Shown here: one piece after another, positions 12,304 through 46,242 of the stretch
Layout: every line of letters starts with the position of its first letter
How positions within the stretch are numbered: the first letter of the stretch is position 1
Assembly: GCF_002788215.1 (NCBI RefSeq)
Contig: NZ_CP024845.1
Location: 1,054,001-1,118,000, forward strand
From: Halohasta litchfieldiae
Lineage (GTDB): Archaea; Halobacteriota; Halobacteria; Halobacteriales; Haloferacaceae
Length of the DNA stretch: 64,000 bases
Reading direction: 5' to 3'
Made by a program: the position numbers and the translations under genes
Notes under the pieces: model-generated
The model's database searches: none
Told to the model about the DNA's origin: nothing
What the model saw: the letters and a program-made list of their open reading frames with translations, nothing else

Positions 12304-13233
12304 ATGACACAGTTCAACGGATTCAGCAGAGCAGGCGAGGCGGAAGTCACGCGAGCGATCACCGAAGAGTTCGCCGACGAGTTCATGGATTACACCGAAA
12401 GCGACGTCATCATCGTCGGTGGCGGTCCCTCGGGGCTGATGGCCGCCAAGGAGCTCGCCGAACAGGGTGTGAAGGTCATGGTCGTCGAGAAAAACAACTA
12501 TCTCGGCGGCGGCTTCTGGCTCGGTGGCTTCCTGATGAACACGCTCACCGTCCGCGAACCGGCCGACGAAGTGCTCGACGAACTCGACGTGCCGCATCAG
12601 GAAAGCGAGGAGGTAGAGGGGCTCCACACCGCCAAAGGCCCCCACGCCTGTTCGGCGCTTATCAACGCGGCCTGCGATGCCGGTGCCAAAATCCAGAACA
12701 TGACCGAGTTCACCGACATCGTCGTTCGAGAGAACCACCGCGTCGCTGGCATTGTCATGAACTGGACGCCAGTCCACGCCCTCCCACGTGAGCTCACGTG
12801 TGTCGACCCAATCGCCGTCGAATCCGAACTCGTTATCGACGCCACCGGCCACGAGGCCGTCGTCGTCTCGAAACTCCAGGAACGTGGCGTCCTCGACGCG
12901 AAAGGAATCAGCCACGCTGAGGAGCACAACACCGGGATGGACCAGAGCGAGGACGGCGAATACGGTGCGCCCGGTCACGACTCGCCGGGCCACGACTCGA
13001 TGTGGATCACCGAGAGCGAAGACGTCGTCGTCGAGGAGACTGGCAAAGTCCACGACGGCGTGATCGCCACCGGTCTTGCCACGGCGACCACCCATGGCCT
13101 GCCGCGGATGGGCCCAACGTTCGGTGCCATGCTGCTGTCCGGCAAGCGCGCTGCCTCCATCGCGCTTGACGAACTCGGCGAAGACGGCTCGGCGGTCGAC
13201 TTCTCGGTCGCCCCGTCGCCTGCTGACGACTAA
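12304..13233 (+). CDS. thi4: Thiamine thiazole synthase Thi4
   Basis: The 309-residue product belongs to the Thi4 family, which builds the adenylated thiazole of thiamine from NAD and glycine. A Rossmann motif VGGGPSGL lies at 38-45. Cys166 in TCVDP sits where yeast and Haloferax Thi4 carry the cysteine that donates sulfur, so this is probably the single-turnover (suicide) type. Methanogen-type enzymes have His there and use sulfide. ATG 12304 begins MTQFNGFS and fits the family. The gene diverges from the GST gene across 121 bases. Confidence 0.95.
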
Positions 13234-13315
13234 CTCCCTTCTGCTCCCCCCACGCACTCTCCCTCCCACCTCCCGTTGCCGAACCGCTCTTGTCGACTGC
13301 GAGCCAACGGGCCGT

Positions 13316-13870
13316 ATGTACGTGCTGGGCCACGTCGGCATCTCGCTGCTGTTGTACGCGCCGCTTGCGTGGCTGTTGCTGTCGACTGGCCAGCCAGCGG
13401 TGGCAGCGCTTACCGGACTGCTGATGATCGTGCTCGCGCCACTACCGGATCTCGACACCTACACCGACCGACTCGACCATCGCGGCCCGACCCACACCGT
13501 CTGGTTCGCTCTCGGTGTCGGTCTCGTAACTGCTCTCGTCGCCGGTGTTAGCGCGGTCGCTGGCGGTGCTATCGTCGGGAGTAGCCACTCACTACCACCG
13601 GTTTGGGTGGCTGGTTGGTTCGGCACGGTGTCGACGCTCACGGTGCTGGGCCATCTGGCCGGAGATATGCTCACGCCGATGGGTGTCTGGCCGTTTCGCC
13701 CGCTCTCAGCGTGGCACTATACAGCAGAGTTGACACCGTCGAAAAATCCGCGGGCGAACCGACTCTGTTTCGCGGCTGGCGTCGTGATCCTAACACTGAC
13801 GCTACTTGCGACAGGCAGTCATGAAAGTATACAGCGGGTAGTTGTCGGCTGTTTGGGATGTGGATCGTAA
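13316..13870 (+). CDS. Membrane-bound metal-dependent hydrolase (YdjM/DUF457 type)
   Basis: This 184-residue protein has about four transmembrane segments. It contains the family motifs HVGISLLLYAPLA, PLPDLDTYTDRLDHRGPTHT and GHLAGDMLTPMGV, with His/Asp residues likely to bind metal at the membrane face. The family includes the LexA-regulated E. coli YdjM. Its substrate is unknown. It starts 82 bases after thi4 and reads the same way, but nothing shows a link to thiamine. Confidence 0.85.
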   Translation: MYVLGHVGISLLLYAPLAWLLLSTGQPAVAALTGLLMIVLAPLPDLDTYTDRLDHRGPTHTVWFALGVGLVTALVAGVSAVAGGAIVGSSHSLPPVWVAGWFGTVSTLTVLGHLAGDMLTPMGVWPFRPLSAWHYTAELTPSKNPRANRLCFAAGVVILTLTLLATGSHESIQRVVVGCLGCGS

Positions 13871-14040
13871 CCCCGAGTAGTAACTGAACCCTACTGAAAC
13901 CTCTGTCGACGATTCAGTGACGGTGTCGCCAGCAACGGGGCCCCTCTATACTTACGCAGAATGATGATCGGAAACAATCAAAATGAGATAGATGCGAGGT
14001 CGTATGATCGATACCAGTTACGGTAGATAATACTCTAAAT

Positions 14041-14065
14041 GCCGCTAAAAAGGACTTATAGCGGC
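14041..14065 (+). promoter_or_regulatory. Inverted repeat upstream of sugar ABC operon
   Basis: The arms gccgcta (14041-14047) and tagcggc (14059-14065) are perfectly complementary around an 11-base A/T-rich spacer. They lie about 70 bases before the likely TATA box in the 296-base gap that precedes the operon. It is a candidate operator, perhaps for the GlpR-type regulator downstream, or a small hairpin. The rest of the gap (13871-14166) is A/T-rich and holds no supported gene. Confidence 0.35.
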
Positions 14066-14133
14066 TATAAACGTCATTTTGCGATTATTCAAGATCGCAG
14101 ACGATGATTGTATACGAAAAACAATCCACAGGA

Positions 14134-14140
14134 TTTATTA
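14134..14140 (+). promoter_or_regulatory. TATA box of sugar ABC operon
   Basis: The sequence tttatta lies 27-33 bases before the ATG at 14167. The spacing fits a leaderless transcript and supports that start over the in-frame ATG at 14104. Confidence 0.5.
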
Positions 14141-14166
14141 TGTATGGGTTTAGCATGATTATTTGC

Positions 14167-15465
14167 ATGAAAGATACACACTACAAAACTCGTCGTCGGT
14201 TCATCACCGGCGTGGGAGCGACCGGTGCAGTTGCGCTTGCAGGGTGTACTGATTCCAACGACAGCGGCTCGTCCGGCGCGACAGCGGGCTCCGGATCCGA
14301 ATCGATGGCCGATGAGATCGTGTTCTACAACTCCGGGTCACTGGAGTTCGACCCCGGAACGGAAGCGAACATCGAACGGTTCGAAGAAGAGACCGGAATC
14401 AGCGTGGAGGTCAACGAGGTTCCGTGGAGCAATCTAAAAACCAGCCTCACCACGATCTGGCGGAACGAGGACAACAAGGTCGACGCGTTCAACGGTCCGA
14501 CGTGGTGGCTCGCCGACTTCGTCAGCTCCGGATGGCTCGAACCGCTCGGACTCGGCGATGATCACATGTCCAAGTTCCCGGATTCGCTCACGAATCTGGT
14601 TCAGTTCGACGGTCAGACGTATATGGCCCCGGAGTTCGGCAAATGGGGCAGCTACCTCTACGACCAGCAGTATCTCGAACAACAGGGATTCGAATCACCA
14701 CCGGACACGTGGGACGAGGTGCTCGAACAAGGTGAACAGCTCGCGGGCGACGGCAAGGCGGGCTTCGCGTTCACGTGGTCCGATAAGTCAGTGTTCACGT
14801 TCAAGCAGTTCCTGTATCAGGCGGGCGGGCAGCTGTTCAACGACAGCAACGAACCAACGTTCGTCGAGGAGGGCGTCGAAGTGTTGGAGTTCTTCGACCA
14901 ACTCCGCGAGCGGAACATCATCCCCGACGGCATGTCCAGTCTGGGCGAGGGTGGGATCGGTGACAACTTCGTCGCCGGTCAGTACGCGACGGTCGAATCG
15001 TGGACGCCGCTCGGCTCCCGCGCGATCAGCGAATGGGAAGACGGTCGACTCGGGAGCGCACGACCGCCGAAAGGGCCCGAGTCGCGCGCCACGTTCCAAG
15101 ACACGAACGGGATCAGCGTCTCGGCGTTCTCCGAGCGAAAGGACGCTGCCAAGGAGTTCGCGCGGTTCATGACCACCCGCAGTTCGTCGAAAAACAACAT
15201 GCTCGTCGAAGGGAACCCCAGCGTCGTCCCGGACGTCTACGAGGACGACGAGATTCAGGCAGAGTACCCCTCCGAACTGCTCGATGACATGCGGTTCAAT
15301 CTCGAAAACGCGCAGGGCGAGAACTACATGGCTCAGCCACAGGTCGACGATTACCTCAACGAACAGATCACTCAGGCGTTGCTGGGTAATAAAGAACCCC
15401 GAGCCGCACTCGAAGATGCCTACGCCAACATCGAACGCCTCTACCAAGACATCGGCCTGATCTAA
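14167..15465 (+). CDS. Sugar ABC transporter substrate-binding lipoprotein
   Basis: This 432-residue family 1 solute-binding protein starts with a Tat signal (TRRRFITGVG) and a lipobox LAGC with Cys27, so it is exported folded and lipid-anchored. The mature part (EIVFYNSGSLEFDPG, later YLYDQQYLEQQGFESPPDTWDEVL) is typical of maltose/glycerol-3-phosphate-type binding proteins. It probably captures a sugar or oligosaccharide; which one cannot be told. It is the first gene of the importer operon that runs to 18657. Confidence 0.92.
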   Translation: MKDTHYKTRRRFITGVGATGAVALAGCTDSNDSGSSGATAGSGSESMADEIVFYNSGSLEFDPGTEANIERFEEETGISVEVNEVPWSNLKTSLTTIWRNEDNKVDAFNGPTWWLADFVSSGWLEPLGLGDDHMSKFPDSLTNLVQFDGQTYMAPEFGKWGSYLYDQQYLEQQGFESPPDTWDEVLEQGEQLAGDGKAGFAFTWSDKSVFTFKQFLYQAGGQLFNDSNEPTFVEEGVEVLEFFDQLRERNIIPDGMSSLGEGGIGDNFVAGQYATVESWTPLGSRAISEWEDGRLGSARPPKGPESRATFQDTNGISVSAFSERKDAAKEFARFMTTRSSSKNNMLVEGNPSVVPDVYEDDEIQAEYPSELLDDMRFNLENAQGENYMAQPQVDDYLNEQITQALLGNKEPRAALEDAYANIERLYQDIGLI

Positions 15466-39851: not shown

Positions 39852-40016
39852 CTTCAGAATTCGGCGGCCTACGGTCGTTCGAAATCACGGCGCAGCCTCC
39901 CCAGCCAACTAATTTCGCGCTTTCAATAACACTCAGAGAGGCTTTTTTCGGAGCAATTCATTCGTTTGTGAGCCGAAAGGACTGTATCGGCGTCGCGGTT
40001 CGTGATATGTGTGACC

Positions 40017-40451
40017 ATGTTCCCGTGGCCGATACAGGCGGTTGTCATCTCACCAGAGATACGCCGTTCGATCACCAGCCACGTCGCTGCCGATCATCCA
40101 CGGGAAGCAGGTGGCTTTCTTAAATGTGTCCGCCGTGGGAACCGACTGTATGCGACCCATCACGTTCGGCTTTCGAACGAATCGTCGACCCCAAAACGCC
40201 GCTTCGAGACGACTGTCGACGACCGTGTGCCACCACCGCCGCGAGTGTTCTACCACTCGCATACGAGCGCGAGTTCTCCCTCCGGGCTCACACGGGTCGA
40301 CAAACGATCTATTCCGGAACCCTTCGCACTCGTCGTTTTTGCACCCCACCGAACAGTACTCAGCTATCGTGGGTTCAAACGCAGACTACTCCGTTGGCAT
40401 GAAATCCGTTTCGAAACGAGTACCGACCAAACCCGGCTTGCACGTCTCTGA
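40017..40451 (+). CDS. JAMM/MPN-domain protein with altered metal motif
   Basis: The 144-residue single-domain protein resembles JAB/JAMM metalloproteases: a Glu in REAGGFL, then YHSHTSASSPSG and a later Asp in TRVDKRS. In canonical JAMM proteins the second His is followed by ten residues and Asp; here the Asp is two residues further on, so the site may be rearranged or inactive. Active haloarchaeal relatives remove SAMP ubiquitin-like tags. ATG 40017 is preferred; GTG at 40002 or 40011 is possible. It follows tRNA-Ile by 165 bases. Confidence 0.7.
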   Translation: MFPWPIQAVVISPEIRRSITSHVAADHPREAGGFLKCVRRGNRLYATHHVRLSNESSTPKRRFETTVDDRVPPPPRVFYHSHTSASSPSGLTRVDKRSIPEPFALVVFAPHRTVLSYRGFKRRLLRWHEIRFETSTDQTRLARL

Positions 40452-40718: not shown

Positions 40719-42284
40719 ATGAGTATAATCGTCTATGGTATCGCGGCGATTATCATTACGATGTTAGCTATCGGGTTTTACGTCTCCCGGAAAATCAAAG
40801 GCGACAGCATCAACTACATCGTCGCAGGCCGCGGACTGATTCTCCCGCTGGCTGCGGCGACGCTAATGGCTCAATCGCTCGATTCGAATGCGACGCTCGG
40901 AAACACGGATCTGGTCTCCTCGTTCGGCTTTTGGGCTGGGGCCGCACTGCCTGTTGGGCTGGCACTCTGTTTGTTCCTCACAGGGCTGTTCTTTGCCAAG
41001 CCGATGAATCGAATGAACCTCACAACGCTTCCCGACTTCTACCGCCGAAAGTACGGTCGGACTGCTGAAGTACTTGCAAGCGTCATTATGTCGGTTGCCT
41101 ACGCGTTCCTGTTGGCAGGCAACCTTGTCGCTGGTGGCTTCTTGTTCGAGATTTTTGTTGGGACGAGTTTCGAACTCGGAGTTGTGATTATCGCCGCCCT
41201 CGTGCTTTCGTATACCGTCGCTGGTGGTCTGTTTGCGGTCGCATATACTGATTTCCTTCAGGCTGGTGTCGCGTTCGTCGGTTCGATTGCACTCATTATC
41301 TTTGTGACATCACAGTACGGGATCACGATCCCTGCGGGAATGGGCCCGACAAATCTCGGACAGCTTACCGATCCAAGCCAGGGTGCATATATCAATCTCG
41401 CTACCATTGTTGCTCTCGGCTTAGGTGATATCGTTGCCATCGACTTCATGGAGCGGGTATTTGCGGCCGACAGCCCCGAAACTGCCCGGAAAGCCTGTTT
41501 TATCGGCTCCGCGGGGACCCTTATTATCGGGATCCCGTTTTCGATTATCGCCCTCTCAGCGAACCCGATCCTCGCGTCGTTAGGCGTCGAAGCCGGCAAT
41601 CAAGCAGTTCTCTACTCGCTGTTGCAGAATGCAGTCCCACCATGGCTCGCGGCACTCGTCATCGCGGGCATTCTCGCCGCGTCGTTCTCGACAAGCGACG
41701 GTGCGATACTGGGTACCTCTTCAGTTCTCGCACGGAACATTGGCGGCATCCGCGTCGACGAGAGCACTTCCGTAACGACTGACGGTGGTGTGGACCAAGG
41801 AGGGCTCTTCGACACCAACAGTGACAGTGATAAACTACTTACTGTTACTCGGTTGATGTCACTGCCGATCACACTCCTTGGAATCTTCTTTGCGCTCCGT
41901 ATTTCTGCGACCGGGATGCTGCTCGTGTTAGCATTCGATATTATGCTTGCTGGTGCGTTCGTGCCGTTGGTGTTAGGGCTCTACTGGTCGGATATGGCAA
42001 ACACACCTGCGGCACTCTCCTCGATGGTCGCTGGATCGGCGACCCGTCTCATTTTGTTCGTGCTCGTCCCGACGACGTACGCGTATGAAAACACCCTATT
42101 GTACATCCCGAACAACATCTTCACGGCGGCCTTCGATGGGCTCCCGACCTTCATCGCCGCAGGAGTGAGTCTCGTAACCTTCGTTGCGGTCGCCTATGCC
42201 ACAAAGGACTCCTACAGCGCTCGGACGCTCACCCGAGACGGTCGACGGACGATCGTTGCGGGCGGCGACAGCGAAGACGAATAG
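40719..42284 (+). CDS. Sodium:solute symporter family transporter
   Basis: This 521-residue membrane protein has about 13 transmembrane segments and SSS-family features: GRGLILPLAAATLMAQ, TLPDFYRRKYGR, SYTVAGGLFAVAYTDFLQ and FMERVFAADSPETARKA. It imports an organic solute with Na+. The substrate is not told by sequence. The neighbours, an AbrB-PhoU regulator and a ureohydrolase in the same direction, suggest a guanidino compound or other amine. Confidence 0.92.
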   Translation: MSIIVYGIAAIIITMLAIGFYVSRKIKGDSINYIVAGRGLILPLAAATLMAQSLDSNATLGNTDLVSSFGFWAGAALPVGLALCLFLTGLFFAKPMNRMNLTTLPDFYRRKYGRTAEVLASVIMSVAYAFLLAGNLVAGGFLFEIFVGTSFELGVVIIAALVLSYTVAGGLFAVAYTDFLQAGVAFVGSIALIIFVTSQYGITIPAGMGPTNLGQLTDPSQGAYINLATIVALGLGDIVAIDFMERVFAADSPETARKACFIGSAGTLIIGIPFSIIALSANPILASLGVEAGNQAVLYSLLQNAVPPWLAALVIAGILAASFSTSDGAILGTSSVLARNIGGIRVDESTSVTTDGGVDQGGLFDTNSDSDKLLTVTRLMSLPITLLGIFFALRISATGMLLVLAFDIMLAGAFVPLVLGLYWSDMANTPAALSSMVAGSATRLILFVLVPTTYAYENTLLYIPNNIFTAAFDGLPTFIAAGVSLVTFVAVAYATKDSYSARTLTRDGRRTIVAGGDSEDE

Positions 42285-42430
42285 CAAGTTCTGTTTTCTT
42301 TTGTCTGTGGGTATTGTTTTCTTTTATCCGCACATACATACTGAAACAGCACCTACATGTTTATACGGGCAAGGAACGTCTCGTTATTTGTCCATATGGT
42401 TTCGGTTACTCAACTTTCGAGGTATCGTCG

Positions 42431-43480
42431 ATGAAAGGAGATGACCTGCGTATCCGCCGGAAAGCCCAGAAGTTGGGTTCGTCGACACTCGCAGTCACGG
42501 TACCCGCCGAGTGGGCTCGTCGCCACGAGCTCTCGAAGGGAGACGATCTGGTCGTCCAACGCGACGAGAACGGCAACTCGCTTTTGATAACCCCTGACCA
42601 ACCGACACGCAACGACGCCGAAACAGTCATTACTGCTGATTCAATGCGCGCCGACGCCCTTTCGCGGGCGGTCGTCACCCAGTACGTTCTCGGGCGTGGG
42701 TTCGTCCGTATCGAGGCCACAGAGACGCTTGATCCGACTCATTATGAGGCTATTCTCGACGCTGAACGCCGCCTGATGGGGCTTGGAATCGTCGAAGAGT
42801 CTTCGACCCATATCACGATTCGCTGTTCGGTCGACCCCGACGACTTCGACCTTCCAACCCTCCTCGGTCGGTTGGGACGTACAGAGGCCACGATCCGGTC
42901 GAGCGCTGTCGAGGCCCTGTTGGATGGGAACTCTGAGGCAGCCCGTCGGGTACGCAACCGGAGTCCACAGCTCGAAAAACTGTTTTCGTTGTTTTTGCGG
43001 CTCGTCTTTACGACCTATCGGAACCCCCGGCTCAATCAGTCAGTAGGAGTCGGGACGGGGTTCCCACTTATCGGCTACCGGTCTGCAGCCCAAGACATTT
43101 CGCTGATGGCCGGCATCGCCGATGATATTGCGACGATCGCTGCCGAGCAAGTAACTGAGCCACTCGAACCGGCGGTGAGAGACGACATCGAGTTGGTCCA
43201 CGAAGCACTCGATACAGCGGCCGAAACGGTCCGTGAGGCGGTGATTGAGCCGGATTATGAGCAAGTAATTGCTGCCCGAGAGAGCCTCGCACAGTTCGAT
43301 GAACGCTCTTCGACAGTCACAGACCGCCTCCAGAACGAACGCCCCGAACCACTTGTTTCGCTCTGTCGAATTCACTTCCTTTTCGAGCGAAGCGCATGCC
43401 ACGCTCGCGACACCCTCGATGTGGCGACCCATCTCGCGTTTCGAGAGAGTCCCGATGTTGTCACCCACAATCATCATTAA
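42431..43480 (+). CDS. AbrB-PhoU domain regulator
   Basis: This 349-residue protein has an N-terminal AbrB/SpoVT DNA-binding domain (KLGSSTLAVTVPAEWARRHELSKGDDLVV region, about 10-45) and a C-terminal helical PhoU-like domain (about 200-340). Archaeal proteins of this design are often named phosphate uptake regulators, but no phosphate transporter is near. The gene sits between the SSS transporter and the ureohydrolase, so it may regulate them. ATG 42431 begins directly at the AbrB domain. Confidence 0.88.
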   Translation: MKGDDLRIRRKAQKLGSSTLAVTVPAEWARRHELSKGDDLVVQRDENGNSLLITPDQPTRNDAETVITADSMRADALSRAVVTQYVLGRGFVRIEATETLDPTHYEAILDAERRLMGLGIVEESSTHITIRCSVDPDDFDLPTLLGRLGRTEATIRSSAVEALLDGNSEAARRVRNRSPQLEKLFSLFLRLVFTTYRNPRLNQSVGVGTGFPLIGYRSAAQDISLMAGIADDIATIAAEQVTEPLEPAVRDDIELVHEALDTAAETVREAVIEPDYEQVIAARESLAQFDERSSTVTDRLQNERPEPLVSLCRIHFLFERSACHARDTLDVATHLAFRESPDVVTHNHH

Positions 43481-43558
43481 GGTGTTTTAGGATACTGGTA
43501 CTGCTCGAACGTACACTCACTCCTCGGTAGGACTTGAACCACCCCCAAGAAAGCCTTT

Positions 43559-43610
43559 AGTATGTTCTTCGTATTTTGATTAAATAAGCGCAAAAGAGCT
43601 CGAACATACT
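43559..43610 (+). promoter_or_regulatory. Inverted repeat flanking the ureohydrolase TATA box
   Basis: The arms agtatgttc (43559-43567) and gaacatact (43602-43610) are perfect complements. The likely TATA box (ttaaataag, about 43580-43588) lies between them. A related sequence ctcgaacgtac lies at 43504-43514. A dimeric regulator bound there could cover the core promoter. The half-site shares cgaaca with the palindrome at 40533-40553. Confidence 0.5.
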
Positions 43611-43642
43611 CAAAAACGCGCTAAAAGCGGATAAACAAACAC

Positions 43643-44749
43643 ATGAGCGACGAAAAATCTGGAGAAGAGATGTATGGCGACAAGTACAAAGAATCGAACG
43701 AACCCATCTTTAGTGGGATTCCAACCTTCCTGAAGCTCCCGGAAGTCGACCGTGATCAGCTGAGCGAGGAGGACGTCGACATCGGGATTATCGGTGCCCC
43801 GCTCGATACTGCGACGACGATCCGTCCGGGCACTCGCTACGGGCCACGTGCGGTTCGTGCGGCCTCGACAGTTCCCTCGCCGCCGTACGAACACTTCAAC
43901 ATCGAAACCGGCGTCGACCCATTCGATACGTTCCAAGTCGCCGATACTGGCGATGCGGCGGTGTCGCCCGGTGATACCCGACAGAGTCAACTGAACATCG
44001 AGGACGCTGTCGCCGAGGTAAGCGAGCAGGCAACCCCGATCGTCATCGGTGGCGATCACTCGATTTCCTACCCGGATATCAAGGGCTGGGCCGAGGCCAA
44101 CGGCTACGAGGATATCGGCCTGATCCACTTCGACTGTCACGCCGACACGGGCGACGAAGGGTTGACCGGCTTCGAGTACGATCACGGCGCGTGGGTCAAG
44201 CGAGTCTACGACGAGGGGATCATGGGTGGCGAGAACTACACCTTGATCGGTCCGCGTGGCTTTTGGCCCGGTCCCGACACCTACGAGGAGATGCGCGAGG
44301 CCGACATGAAGTGGTACACCTCAATGGAGGTCGCTGGGATGGACCTCGATGACATCGTCGCCGATGCAGTCCAGCGTGCGACTGATGGCACCGACGCAGT
44401 GTGGGTCTCATTCGATGTCGACGTGATGGAGCCTGCCTATGCACCGGGAACTGGTGAACCCGAACCCGGTGGACTCGTTCCTCGTGAGGCGATCTACATG
44501 GTTCGTGAGGTCGTCAAAGCACTCGATCCCGAGAACTTCGGCTTCGACGTGGTCGAGGTTTCACCGGCCTACGACACGAGTGATTCGAACTCGTACAACG
44601 GCGGTGTCACCAGTGGGCTCGCCAATCGTCTCATTATCGAGGTCATGGGAAGCATGGCACTCGCTAAAAAAGGACTCAAAGAAGGCTCACCGATCAAACC
44701 GAAAGAGCCGCTCGGTCCGACAGAACCGGTCCAGCCGGCCGACGACTAA
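43643..44749 (+). CDS. Ureohydrolase (agmatinase/guanidino-acid hydrolase family)
   Basis: The 368-residue enzyme has the binuclear Mn/Ni site of arginase-like hydrolases: GGDHS, DCHAD and SFDVDVMEPAYAPGTG. They release urea from guanidino compounds. The usual final DP of the third motif is EP here. The long N-terminus with PGTRYGPRAVRAAS and the PRGFWPG loop resemble guanidinobutyrase/guanidinopropionase-type enzymes more than classical agmatinase, but the substrate is unproven. Adjacent are an AbrB-PhoU regulator and an SSS transporter. Confidence 0.9.
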   Translation: MSDEKSGEEMYGDKYKESNEPIFSGIPTFLKLPEVDRDQLSEEDVDIGIIGAPLDTATTIRPGTRYGPRAVRAASTVPSPPYEHFNIETGVDPFDTFQVADTGDAAVSPGDTRQSQLNIEDAVAEVSEQATPIVIGGDHSISYPDIKGWAEANGYEDIGLIHFDCHADTGDEGLTGFEYDHGAWVKRVYDEGIMGGENYTLIGPRGFWPGPDTYEEMREADMKWYTSMEVAGMDLDDIVADAVQRATDGTDAVWVSFDVDVMEPAYAPGTGEPEPGGLVPREAIYMVREVVKALDPENFGFDVVEVSPAYDTSDSNSYNGGVTSGLANRLIIEVMGSMALAKKGLKEGSPIKPKEPLGPTEPVQPADD

Positions 44750-44977: not shown

Positions 44978-45322
44978 TTAGGCAGCCATCGATCGACAGC
45001 TTTCGATACAGGGTTCGAGGACTTCGGCACAGGTCTGGCAGTGGTCCATGTCGTGTTGCTCGCACTCGTCGCGGCAGGCTTCACACGCATCGGCACAGAT
45101 ACCGGCCAGTTCGGCGTGGAACTCGGACTCACGACTCATAAACCGGGCGTGGAGTGAGGCGAGGTCGGCAACGTCCCGACAGAGGCGGAGACACCGCGCC
45201 ATCTCCTCGCCCTCTTCGGCGCAGGCGTCCGCACACATCTCGCAGGCTTGGGCAGCCTCCGAGCAGAGATCGATACACTCGCTGATGTCGCTATCTTGCT
45301 GTTGGAGCTGTTGAATTGCCAT
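44978..45322 (-). CDS. Cys-rich four-helix-bundle copper-binding protein
   Basis: The 114-residue protein has 15 Cys residues, mostly as CxxC or CxxxC along predicted helices (ECIDLC, ACEMCADAC, ICADACEACRDEC, HCQTC). This matches the four-helix bundle copper-storage/DUF326-like family, which binds many Cu(I) ions inside the bundle. No signal peptide is seen, so it is probably cytosolic. ATG 45322 (MAIQQLQQQD) is preferred; the longer frame starts with a non-conserved stretch. Confidence 0.85.
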   Translation of the reverse strand: MAIQQLQQQDSDISECIDLCSEAAQACEMCADACAEEGEEMARCLRLCRDVADLASLHARFMSRESEFHAELAGICADACEACRDECEQHDMDHCQTCAEVLEPCIESCRSMAA

Positions 45323-45456
45323 CGCAGACCATACATCCACGGATGCGATCACAGGCGTTATGGCGAGATGGATGCCAATAGCTACAGTCGACGGTCGCTG
45401 ACTATGCACGGACTGAGACAGAAACTATTAGTTGGAAATACCACCTCGTACTCAGT

Positions 45457-46242
45457 ATGCAACTCTCCGATGCAGAGTTCGAACAGTACCAGACCGAAGG
45501 CTATCTCGTCGACGACGACGCCCTCTCTCCAGAGACCGTCGACCGCGTCAAAGAACGCCTCCGCGAGTACACCCACGGCGACCGTGAGCCCGAGACGTTC
45601 AACAAGCAGCTCGAACCACGCGTCGAACGCGGCGAACTGGACGTCGACGAACCGGGCGACGCCGTCCGAAAGTTCGAGGGCCTCGGCATGGTCCAAGAAG
45701 ACGACGTCTTTGCAGAGATCGCGAACCACGAAACGATCACCGAGGTGGCCACCCAGCTTCTGGGACCGAACCTCAAACTCCTGCGGAGCGCGGCGATGTT
45801 CAAACCACCCTCCGTGGGGAGCGAGAAGGGCCTCCATCAGGATGCCGCCTACTATCCCATCCAGCCGATGGATCACCTCACGGCGTGGATTGCACTCGAC
45901 GACGCGACCCCCGAAAACGGCTGTATGACCGTCATTCCGGGCGCACACAAGGACGGCATTCTCACCCACGAGGCCGTCGAATACGATACCGATACCGTGA
46001 TCAACGACACCGACTATTCGGAGGAAGATCTCGTCGAGATCCCGATGGACGCCGGAAGTGTGCTGTTTACCCACTGTTTAACCCCACATTATACCGCACC
46101 GAACACGACCGACCAGTGGCGACGGGCGCTGATCATGTCCTACATGGATGCCCGCTCGCGGTTCACCAAGTCGGACGAGGAACTCCCAGCGTGGGTCGAC
46201 GCGGTCCACATTCGGGGCGAGGAGTTCCCCGGCTGCGTGTGA
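45457..46242 (+). CDS. Phytanoyl-CoA dioxygenase (PhyH) family oxygenase
   Basis: This 261-residue Fe(II)/2-oxoglutarate-dependent oxygenase has the iron ligands in LHQDAAYYPI (HxD) and a distal His in THCLTPHYTAPN, with Arg in WRRALIMSY for 2-oxoglutarate. It hydroxylates an unknown small molecule. It resembles general PhyH enzymes, not ectoine hydroxylase, whose signature is absent. It has its own start after a 134-base gap, divergent from the copper protein gene. Confidence 0.88.
   Translation: MQLSDAEFEQYQTEGYLVDDDALSPETVDRVKERLREYTHGDREPETFNKQLEPRVERGELDVDEPGDAVRKFEGLGMVQEDDVFAEIANHETITEVATQLLGPNLKLLRSAAMFKPPSVGSEKGLHQDAAYYPIQPMDHLTAWIALDDATPENGCMTVIPGAHKDGILTHEAVEYDTDTVINDTDYSEEDLVEIPMDAGSVLFTHCLTPHYTAPNTTDQWRRALIMSYMDARSRFTKSDEELPAWVDAVHIRGEEFPGCV

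Follow-up and report, generated by a model that had tools for sequence, protein, structure and literature searches.

A predicted guanidine assimilation module in haloarchaea, with a ureohydrolase clade shared by ammonia-oxidizing archaea

That guanidine can serve as a source of nitrogen was discovered recently and is known from bacteria, in which an importer, a guanidinase and urease act together. No account of guanidine use by archaea was found in the literature we searched. We analyzed a 64-kb stretch of the single-contig, 3.33-Mb genome of the haloarchaeon Halohasta litchfieldiae (G000:C1:1054001-1118000, hereafter “the window”, to whose first letter plain positions refer), in which an SSS-family symporter, an AbrB-PhoU protein and a ureohydrolase (UREO) are encoded one after another. 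This trio is probably a guanidine assimilation module that would import guanidine, hydrolyze it to urea and ammonia, and so supply nitrogen to the cell. The proposal draws on gene linkage, co-occurrence with urease, an intact metal site, clade structure, and transporter families shared with riboswitch operons, each of them observed in the genomes compared. Three elements would be new relative to guanidine assimilation as already described: the enzyme would belong to an archaeal lineage that has Glu instead of Trp, import would be by an SSS transporter, and an AbrB-PhoU protein would replace the riboswitch.

The symporter gene (40719..42284, + strand; 521 amino acids; PF00474, 105.6 bits) encodes the predicted Na+-coupled guanidine importer. 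After a gap of 146 nucleotides (nt) comes the AbrB-PhoU protein (42431..43480, +; 349 amino acids), the predicted transcriptional regulator of the module, with AbrB/MazE (PF04014, 41.8 bits, cut-off 24.7) and PhoU (PF01895, 26.3 bits, cut-off 23.5) domains both above their cut-offs. A further 162 nt separate it from UREO (43643..44749, +; 368 amino acids; PF00491, 259.9 bits), a member of a Glu-type ureohydrolase clade and the predicted guanidinase. These plus-strand open reading frames (ORFs), with families assigned by Pfam, are the three same-direction genes described in an initial annotation of the window. That annotation had read them as a system for the uptake and hydrolysis of a guanidino acid, guanidine or agmatine; our analysis supports such a module and narrows the choice of substrate to guanidine. 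For the module we infer substrate, metal, Na+ coupling, regulation and activity as follows. The symporter would import guanidinium, with coupling to Na+ predicted from its family; the Glu-type ureohydrolase would convert guanidine to urea and ammonium at a two-metal center; urease, whose genes are at another site in this genome but adjoin the module in several relatives, would release ammonia from the urea; and the AbrB-PhoU protein would stand in for the bacterial guanidine riboswitch in controlling the genes.

The three genes are one unit. When 84,980 species genomes were scanned with six patterns derived from the window's UREO protein, 78 loci emerged: 34 haloarchaeal, 1 from Aquificaceae, and 43 from Nitrososphaerota. 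Because the patterns came from the window protein, the 34 haloarchaeal loci are biased toward close relatives. In 31 of them, AbrB-PhoU lies within 0.4 kb and SSS within 3.4 kb of UREO; in L012 and L028 both partners are missing beside UREO, and in L031 the contig starts inside UREO. The scattering of orthologs among relatives that the initial annotation had set against its own proposal is therefore not what we see, one separation (in genome G036, below) aside. In several haloarchaeal loci SSS has the opposite orientation or a different position, so the linkage is more than an intact operon passed on. Across 116 genomes of the order, UREO, SSS and a close AbrB-PhoU ortholog (at least 54% identity, 365-755 bits) all occur in the identical 7. 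UREO is present in 11 of 170 genomes of the family, and orthologs are also found on plasmids; this patchy distribution fits an accessory catabolic module, as expected. On Haloarcula marismortui pNG700, the SSS, regulator and UREO genes are RR_RS02565, RR_RS02570 and RR_RS02575, respectively.

Some individual loci carry further features. In Natronorubrum bangense (L027/L134, ~12374-14276), the module SSS is a short fragment beside a TnpA and TnpB pair of IS200/IS605 type, and the module may therefore be disrupted in this species. On one contig of a metagenome-assembled genome (MAG), a second ureohydrolase of PGTGT type (L012:8745-9734, − strand) lies 1.7 kb from UREO and adjoins what looks like an ABC permease gene. 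A thermosome (chaperonin) gene stands a few kb from UREO in L003, L005, L008, L010 and 26 non-haloarchaeal loci; guanidine is a denaturant, yet this proximity may be chance.

Guanidine itself is the most likely substrate. The nearest bacterial relative of the SSS transporter lies in a riboswitch-controlled guanidinase operon. The source genome encodes a single SSS of this kind, and a search for relatives outside haloarchaea in 72,556 plasmid records gave few matches. The best, on a plasmid of Rubrobacter indicoceani (L145; 56.6-57.6% identity), belongs to a locus with the order riboswitch, guanidinase, SSS, fmdA (opposite strand), ureA, ureB, ureC, ureF. There, a guanidine-I riboswitch (75.7 bits) is located 80 nt 5' of a Trp-type ureohydrolase of the true guanidinase type (motif PGTGWPEPGG), which is 34% identical to UREO. 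The second relative, from Nonomuraea gerenzanensis (50-50.8%), is divergent from another Trp-type guanidinase, and a scan of that locus gave no guanidine riboswitch reaching the cut-off. Both bacterial transporters nest with the haloarchaeal SSS in our tree (support 100/99), and the SSS of ammonia-oxidizing archaea form the sister of that clade (98/99). When the Nitrososphaerota SSS from L056 is used as the query, the same SSS group tops the list (241-271 bits), the next match scoring 134 bits. A formamidase gene, fmdA, is found near the module in Haloarcula marismortui pNG700 (L132:2890-4161) and also near the Rubrobacter guanidinase operon (L145:11526-12770).

Urease co-occurs with the module. 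At E <= 1e-40, urease alpha is present in all 7 module genomes and in 28 of the 116 genomes of the order (hypergeometric 2.5e-5, kinship ignored); at the looser E <= 0.001, 43 genomes are listed, the additional ones weakly scoring. Urease was found in 22 of 23 genomes reached via UREO loci, a count that leaves out L014 and L017, and in 11 of the 23 its distance from UREO is no more than 15 kb. In the source genome it is encoded at G000:C1:622370, far from the module, among what read as urt-like ABC and ure genes. NicO-type nickel transporters adjoin some UREO loci, the protein in L016 scoring above the Pfam cut-off and that in L056 below it. Many Nitrososphaerota loci also have a stand-alone urease-gamma-like protein 3' of UREO (e.g., L056:9151-9534; PF00547, 41.6 bits).

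A different transporter accompanies UREO in Aquificota and would constitute a second, independent link to guanidine. UREO occurs in 3 of 136 genomes of the Aquificota class, and in all three loci the next genes encode a binding protein of NMT1 type, a permease and an ATPase, i.e., a NitT/TauT-type ABC importer, amid urease and urea-type ABC genes. The closest plasmid-borne relatives of the binding protein come from Paenibacillus (44%), Cupriavidus (44%) and Enterococcus (40%). The Cupriavidus and Enterococcus loci are annotated with ABC, UAAP1/2, urea carboxylase and allophanate hydrolase genes, and the Paenibacillus locus has a similar gene order by reading of its ORFs. We take this layout to be that of the guanidine carboxylase operon, which fits the riboswitches: a guanidine-I riboswitch lies 5' of the binding protein in Paenibacillus and Cupriavidus, though not in Enterococcus. 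We inspected nine relatives of the binding protein (the Enterococcus raffinosus records H3 and H5, at 40%, are outside this set), and five, including all three at 40% or more, are in guanidine-carboxylase or allophanate contexts; the other four are not.

The regulator differs in its surroundings from other proteins of its type. The source genome has five AbrB-PhoU proteins. Of the four outside the module, three are encoded at pst-like or phn-like transporter genes; the paralog closest in sequence (38%) has an inositol phosphatase gene and a nitrilase-like gene nearby. An AbrB-PhoU paralog at 38-43% identity occurs in most of the 116 genomes and is separate from the module subtype. Given that three of the other paralogs are at pst/phn loci and this one is linked to the module, the module subtype is thus the nitrogen-tied one. 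From this we infer that the AbrB-PhoU protein controls the module. The initial annotation had suggested the same, as a role outside phosphate; strict linkage and the contrast with the pst/phn paralogs favor this, but a search for an operator shared among module upstream regions found none. A GAACRTAC-type inverted repeat 5' of UREO, seen by eye in the window, was rejected as an operator since it is not conserved: outside the window it recurs upstream of UREO in a single locus (L006) and in one SSS stretch that is over-long (L029).

Alternatively, the AbrB-PhoU neighbor could be a phosphate-control protein that is present by history and does not regulate the module. The location of three of its four paralogs and the lack of a shared operator are what this explanation has in its favor. 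We nevertheless consider it unlikely, as the close AbrB-PhoU subtype is found in exactly the module genomes and, in agreement with the initial annotation's remark that no phosphate transporter lies near the PhoU-like protein, a tblastn search with the Pst- and Phn-type proteins of this genome detected no Pst/Phn transporter genes in the 64-kb window. These queries matched the general ATPase of another ABC system, whose binding protein and permeases read as a sugar-type importer, as well as short weak stretches. The nearest pst-like set we found is at G000:C1:1142015, ~43 kb beyond UREO.

A conserved leader block, AAGNAANNYTTT, emerged from the upstream-region pattern search at 43547..43558 (+), 96 nt 5' of the UREO start. 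Upstream of UREO, the exact pattern occurs in 17 of 33 regions, between -79 and -107, whereas none of 32 regulator or 31 SSS upstream regions has it; it may be a core promoter with a long leader. That each gene has a leader of its own, as initially annotated, gains indirect support from this block and from the inversion of SSS relative to the regulator in several relatives. Scans for sigma-70 promoters and terminators gave chance numbers with models that are not apt for archaea.

We return to the predicted guanidine module and to its enzyme. The six metal ligands of UREO (H139, D164, H166, D168, D258, D260) are invariant in 24 of 24 aligned rows, as are T59, H181 and E305. For Synechocystis GdmH, Thr97 and Trp305 are given as specificity residues in the available part of PMC11410670. 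T59 of UREO is the equivalent of Thr97; we dropped it as a guanidinase diagnostic because guanidinopropionase (3nip) has Thr there too. UREO sequences from haloarchaea, Nitrososphaerota and Aquificota are monophyletic (100/99) and share an insertion, SDxxSYNGG, after the catalytic Glu. An AlphaFold model of UREO has a mean pLDDT (predicted local distance difference test score) of 74.8 and a pTM (predicted template modeling score) of 0.82. Its best Foldseek matches among solved structures are the guanidinases 9fek and 7esr, with other ureohydrolases close behind. Since the model is of low confidence exactly at the pocket loops (58-79 and 308-320), we draw no pocket geometry from it.

Several observations weigh against a guanidine module. 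The position of GdmH Trp305 is Glu272 in UREO, with Glu in every row that has letters there (35 haloarchaeal, 1 Aquificaceae, and 36 of the 43 Nitrososphaerota rows). UREO does not join GdmH in either tree, the deep forks being weak (55/70), and its identity to GdmH (33-35%) is matched by that to guanidinobutyrase (34%) and exceeded by that to an actinobacterial “agmatinase” (39%). No guanidine riboswitch reached the gathering score in the window, in 8 UREO loci, or in L107 and L108. Two loci carry the transporter argument: a single SSS operon under riboswitch control and a linked pair in which no riboswitch was detected. Among six distant relatives of the Aquificota binding protein (31-38%), two are in a guanidine or allophanate context, namely those of Burkholderia (urea carboxylase and two guanidine-I riboswitches) and Acinetobacter (allophanate hydrolase), and four are not: Chondrocystis, Ilyobacter, Pseudomonas mendocina and Pararhizobium, the last with agmatinase and aminotransferase genes. 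Finally, in G036, one of the 7 module genomes of the order, UREO is 86 kb away from the SSS-AbrB pair. Because its sister group is weakly placed and it is no closer to GdmH by identity, we do not class UREO as a GdmH. In the approximately unbiased (AU) test, a joint clade with GdmH (p-AU 0.265) and one with GbuA/GpuA/PAH (0.188) are both retained. By sequence, UREO would be a clade of its own rather than a GdmH ortholog, and we propose that it works like GdmH.

The Glu for Trp exchange and the seven-residue SYNGG-type insertion indicate that the UREO pocket differs from that of GdmH, and both features would suit a module that handles a substituted small guanidine such as methylguanidine, with Glu272 reading the extra group. 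This we regard as rather improbable: the SSS is ~57% identical to one that stands beside a canonical Trp-type guanidinase and a guanidine-I riboswitch, and no dioxygenase or demethylase is a constant neighbor in the gene maps we read.

Much less probable is a catabolic pair for guanidinobutyrate or guanidinopropionate as in Pseudomonas, the precedent named in the initial annotation. An SSS and a ureohydrolase do stand together in Pseudomonas-type loci, so the pairing is real, but these are the wrong relatives: the SSS of the Pseudomonas aeruginosa guanidinobutyrase-type locus (L151) is 25.6% identical and belongs to a different clade, against ~57% for Rubrobacter. At the Glu272 site, guanidinobutyrase, guanidinopropionase, proclavaminate amidinohydrolase and plasmid “agmatinases” have mostly Thr and never Glu; guanidinobutyrase and guanidinopropionase carry PGTGT and UREO PGTGE. 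Unlike other haloarchaeal “agmatinases”, UREO has no recurring aminotransferase or aldehyde dehydrogenase beside it in the clusters read. We give next to no credence to an agmatinase that supplies polyamines or urea beside a urea-type SSS, as database names have it and as annotated in ammonia-oxidizing archaea (the available part of PMC11131427 calls the archaeal pair agmatinase and low-affinity urea SSS), since UREO scores below the curated NCBIfam agmatinase cut-offs (TIGR01230 and PRK02190; 156.1 < 174.3 and 210.2 < 302), has a scattered distribution in haloarchaea (7 of 116 genomes) that does not suit a core gene of polyamine metabolism, and is not needed as the sole agmatinase of a genome that has an agmatinase-like gene directly behind aIF5A and an arginase-like gene, as named by reading.

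Among 150 genomes from the class of ammonia-oxidizing archaea (that of G281), 35 also have a UREO ortholog. In the Nitrososphaerota loci, SSS is near UREO on the opposite strand in 33 of 43, and in all 22 of those with a 5-kb flank on that side. These SSS are 37-38% identical to the guanidinase-linked ones, and for this reason the guanidine case is weaker here than in haloarchaea. The available part of PMC11410670 reports no guanidine-degradation genes in ammonia-oxidizing archaea, and that of PMC12625717 likewise reports none in its MAGs, by blastp; PMC11131427, as far as available, observed the SSS beside an “agmatinase” and interpreted it as urea regulation. The sequence evidence suggests that UREO in these archaea is a guanidinase that would go unnamed in searches of that kind. 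On balance, we lean toward a wider proposal: a second guanidinase lineage, with Glu for Trp, would serve haloarchaea, ammonia-oxidizing archaea and some Aquificota; ammonia-oxidizing archaea would take up guanidine and nitrify its nitrogen; and haloarchaea would have recruited a phosphate-type AbrB-PhoU protein for control.

Other genes flank the trio in the window. Directly 5' of SSS, a JAB/Mov34-domain protein (40002..40451, +), whose Pfam Prok-JAB match stays below the cut-off, has a tblastn match 5' of SSS in 20 of 34 loci from haloarchaea, both chromosomal and on a Haloarcula plasmid, and may be an additional module member. On the 3' side of UREO are a cysteine-rich Csp1-like protein (44978-45409, −; weak TIGR04401 match) and a PhyH-family dioxygenase (45457-46242, +), neither of which had a tblastn match in the other UREO loci.

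If the Glu-type enzyme is a guanidinase, published surveys overlooked it. Widespread archaeal nitrifiers would then gain a new source of nitrogen and energy, a ureohydrolase annotated as agmatinase would have a function, and guanidine a named SSS importer. Likewise, a regulator type that the source genome otherwise shows at loci for phosphate and phosphonate would acquire a nitrogen-linked role.

The closest described enzymes are the guanidinases (GdmH) of Synechocystis sp. PCC 6803 and Nitrospira inopinata (7esr, 7oi1, 9fek), which share with UREO the ureohydrolase fold, the six metal ligands and the active-site Thr, His and Glu, and are its best structure and sequence match among solved structures. 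The GdmH systems also share the logic of importer plus urease. UREO differs from them in Glu272, the SYNGG insertion, an identity of 33-35% and the missing riboswitch; no GhaAB/HypAB-type pair was noticed beside it, and its importer is an SSS rather than an ABC or APC transporter. The Pseudomonas locus (L151, gene annotated speB) pairs a ureohydrolase with an SSS as the module does, but its SSS is of the other clade, its pocket is the PGTGT of guanidinobutyrase, and it has extra carbon-skeleton genes. The Rubrobacter indicoceani operon resembles the module in SSS clade, adjoining ureohydrolase and nearby urease; it differs in its Trp-type enzyme and in having a riboswitch where the module has AbrB-PhoU. 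That protein, in turn, has the same two-domain layout as its paralogs at haloarchaeal pst/phn loci, whereas the module subtype is nitrogen-linked and, in the 116 genomes, found with the module only.

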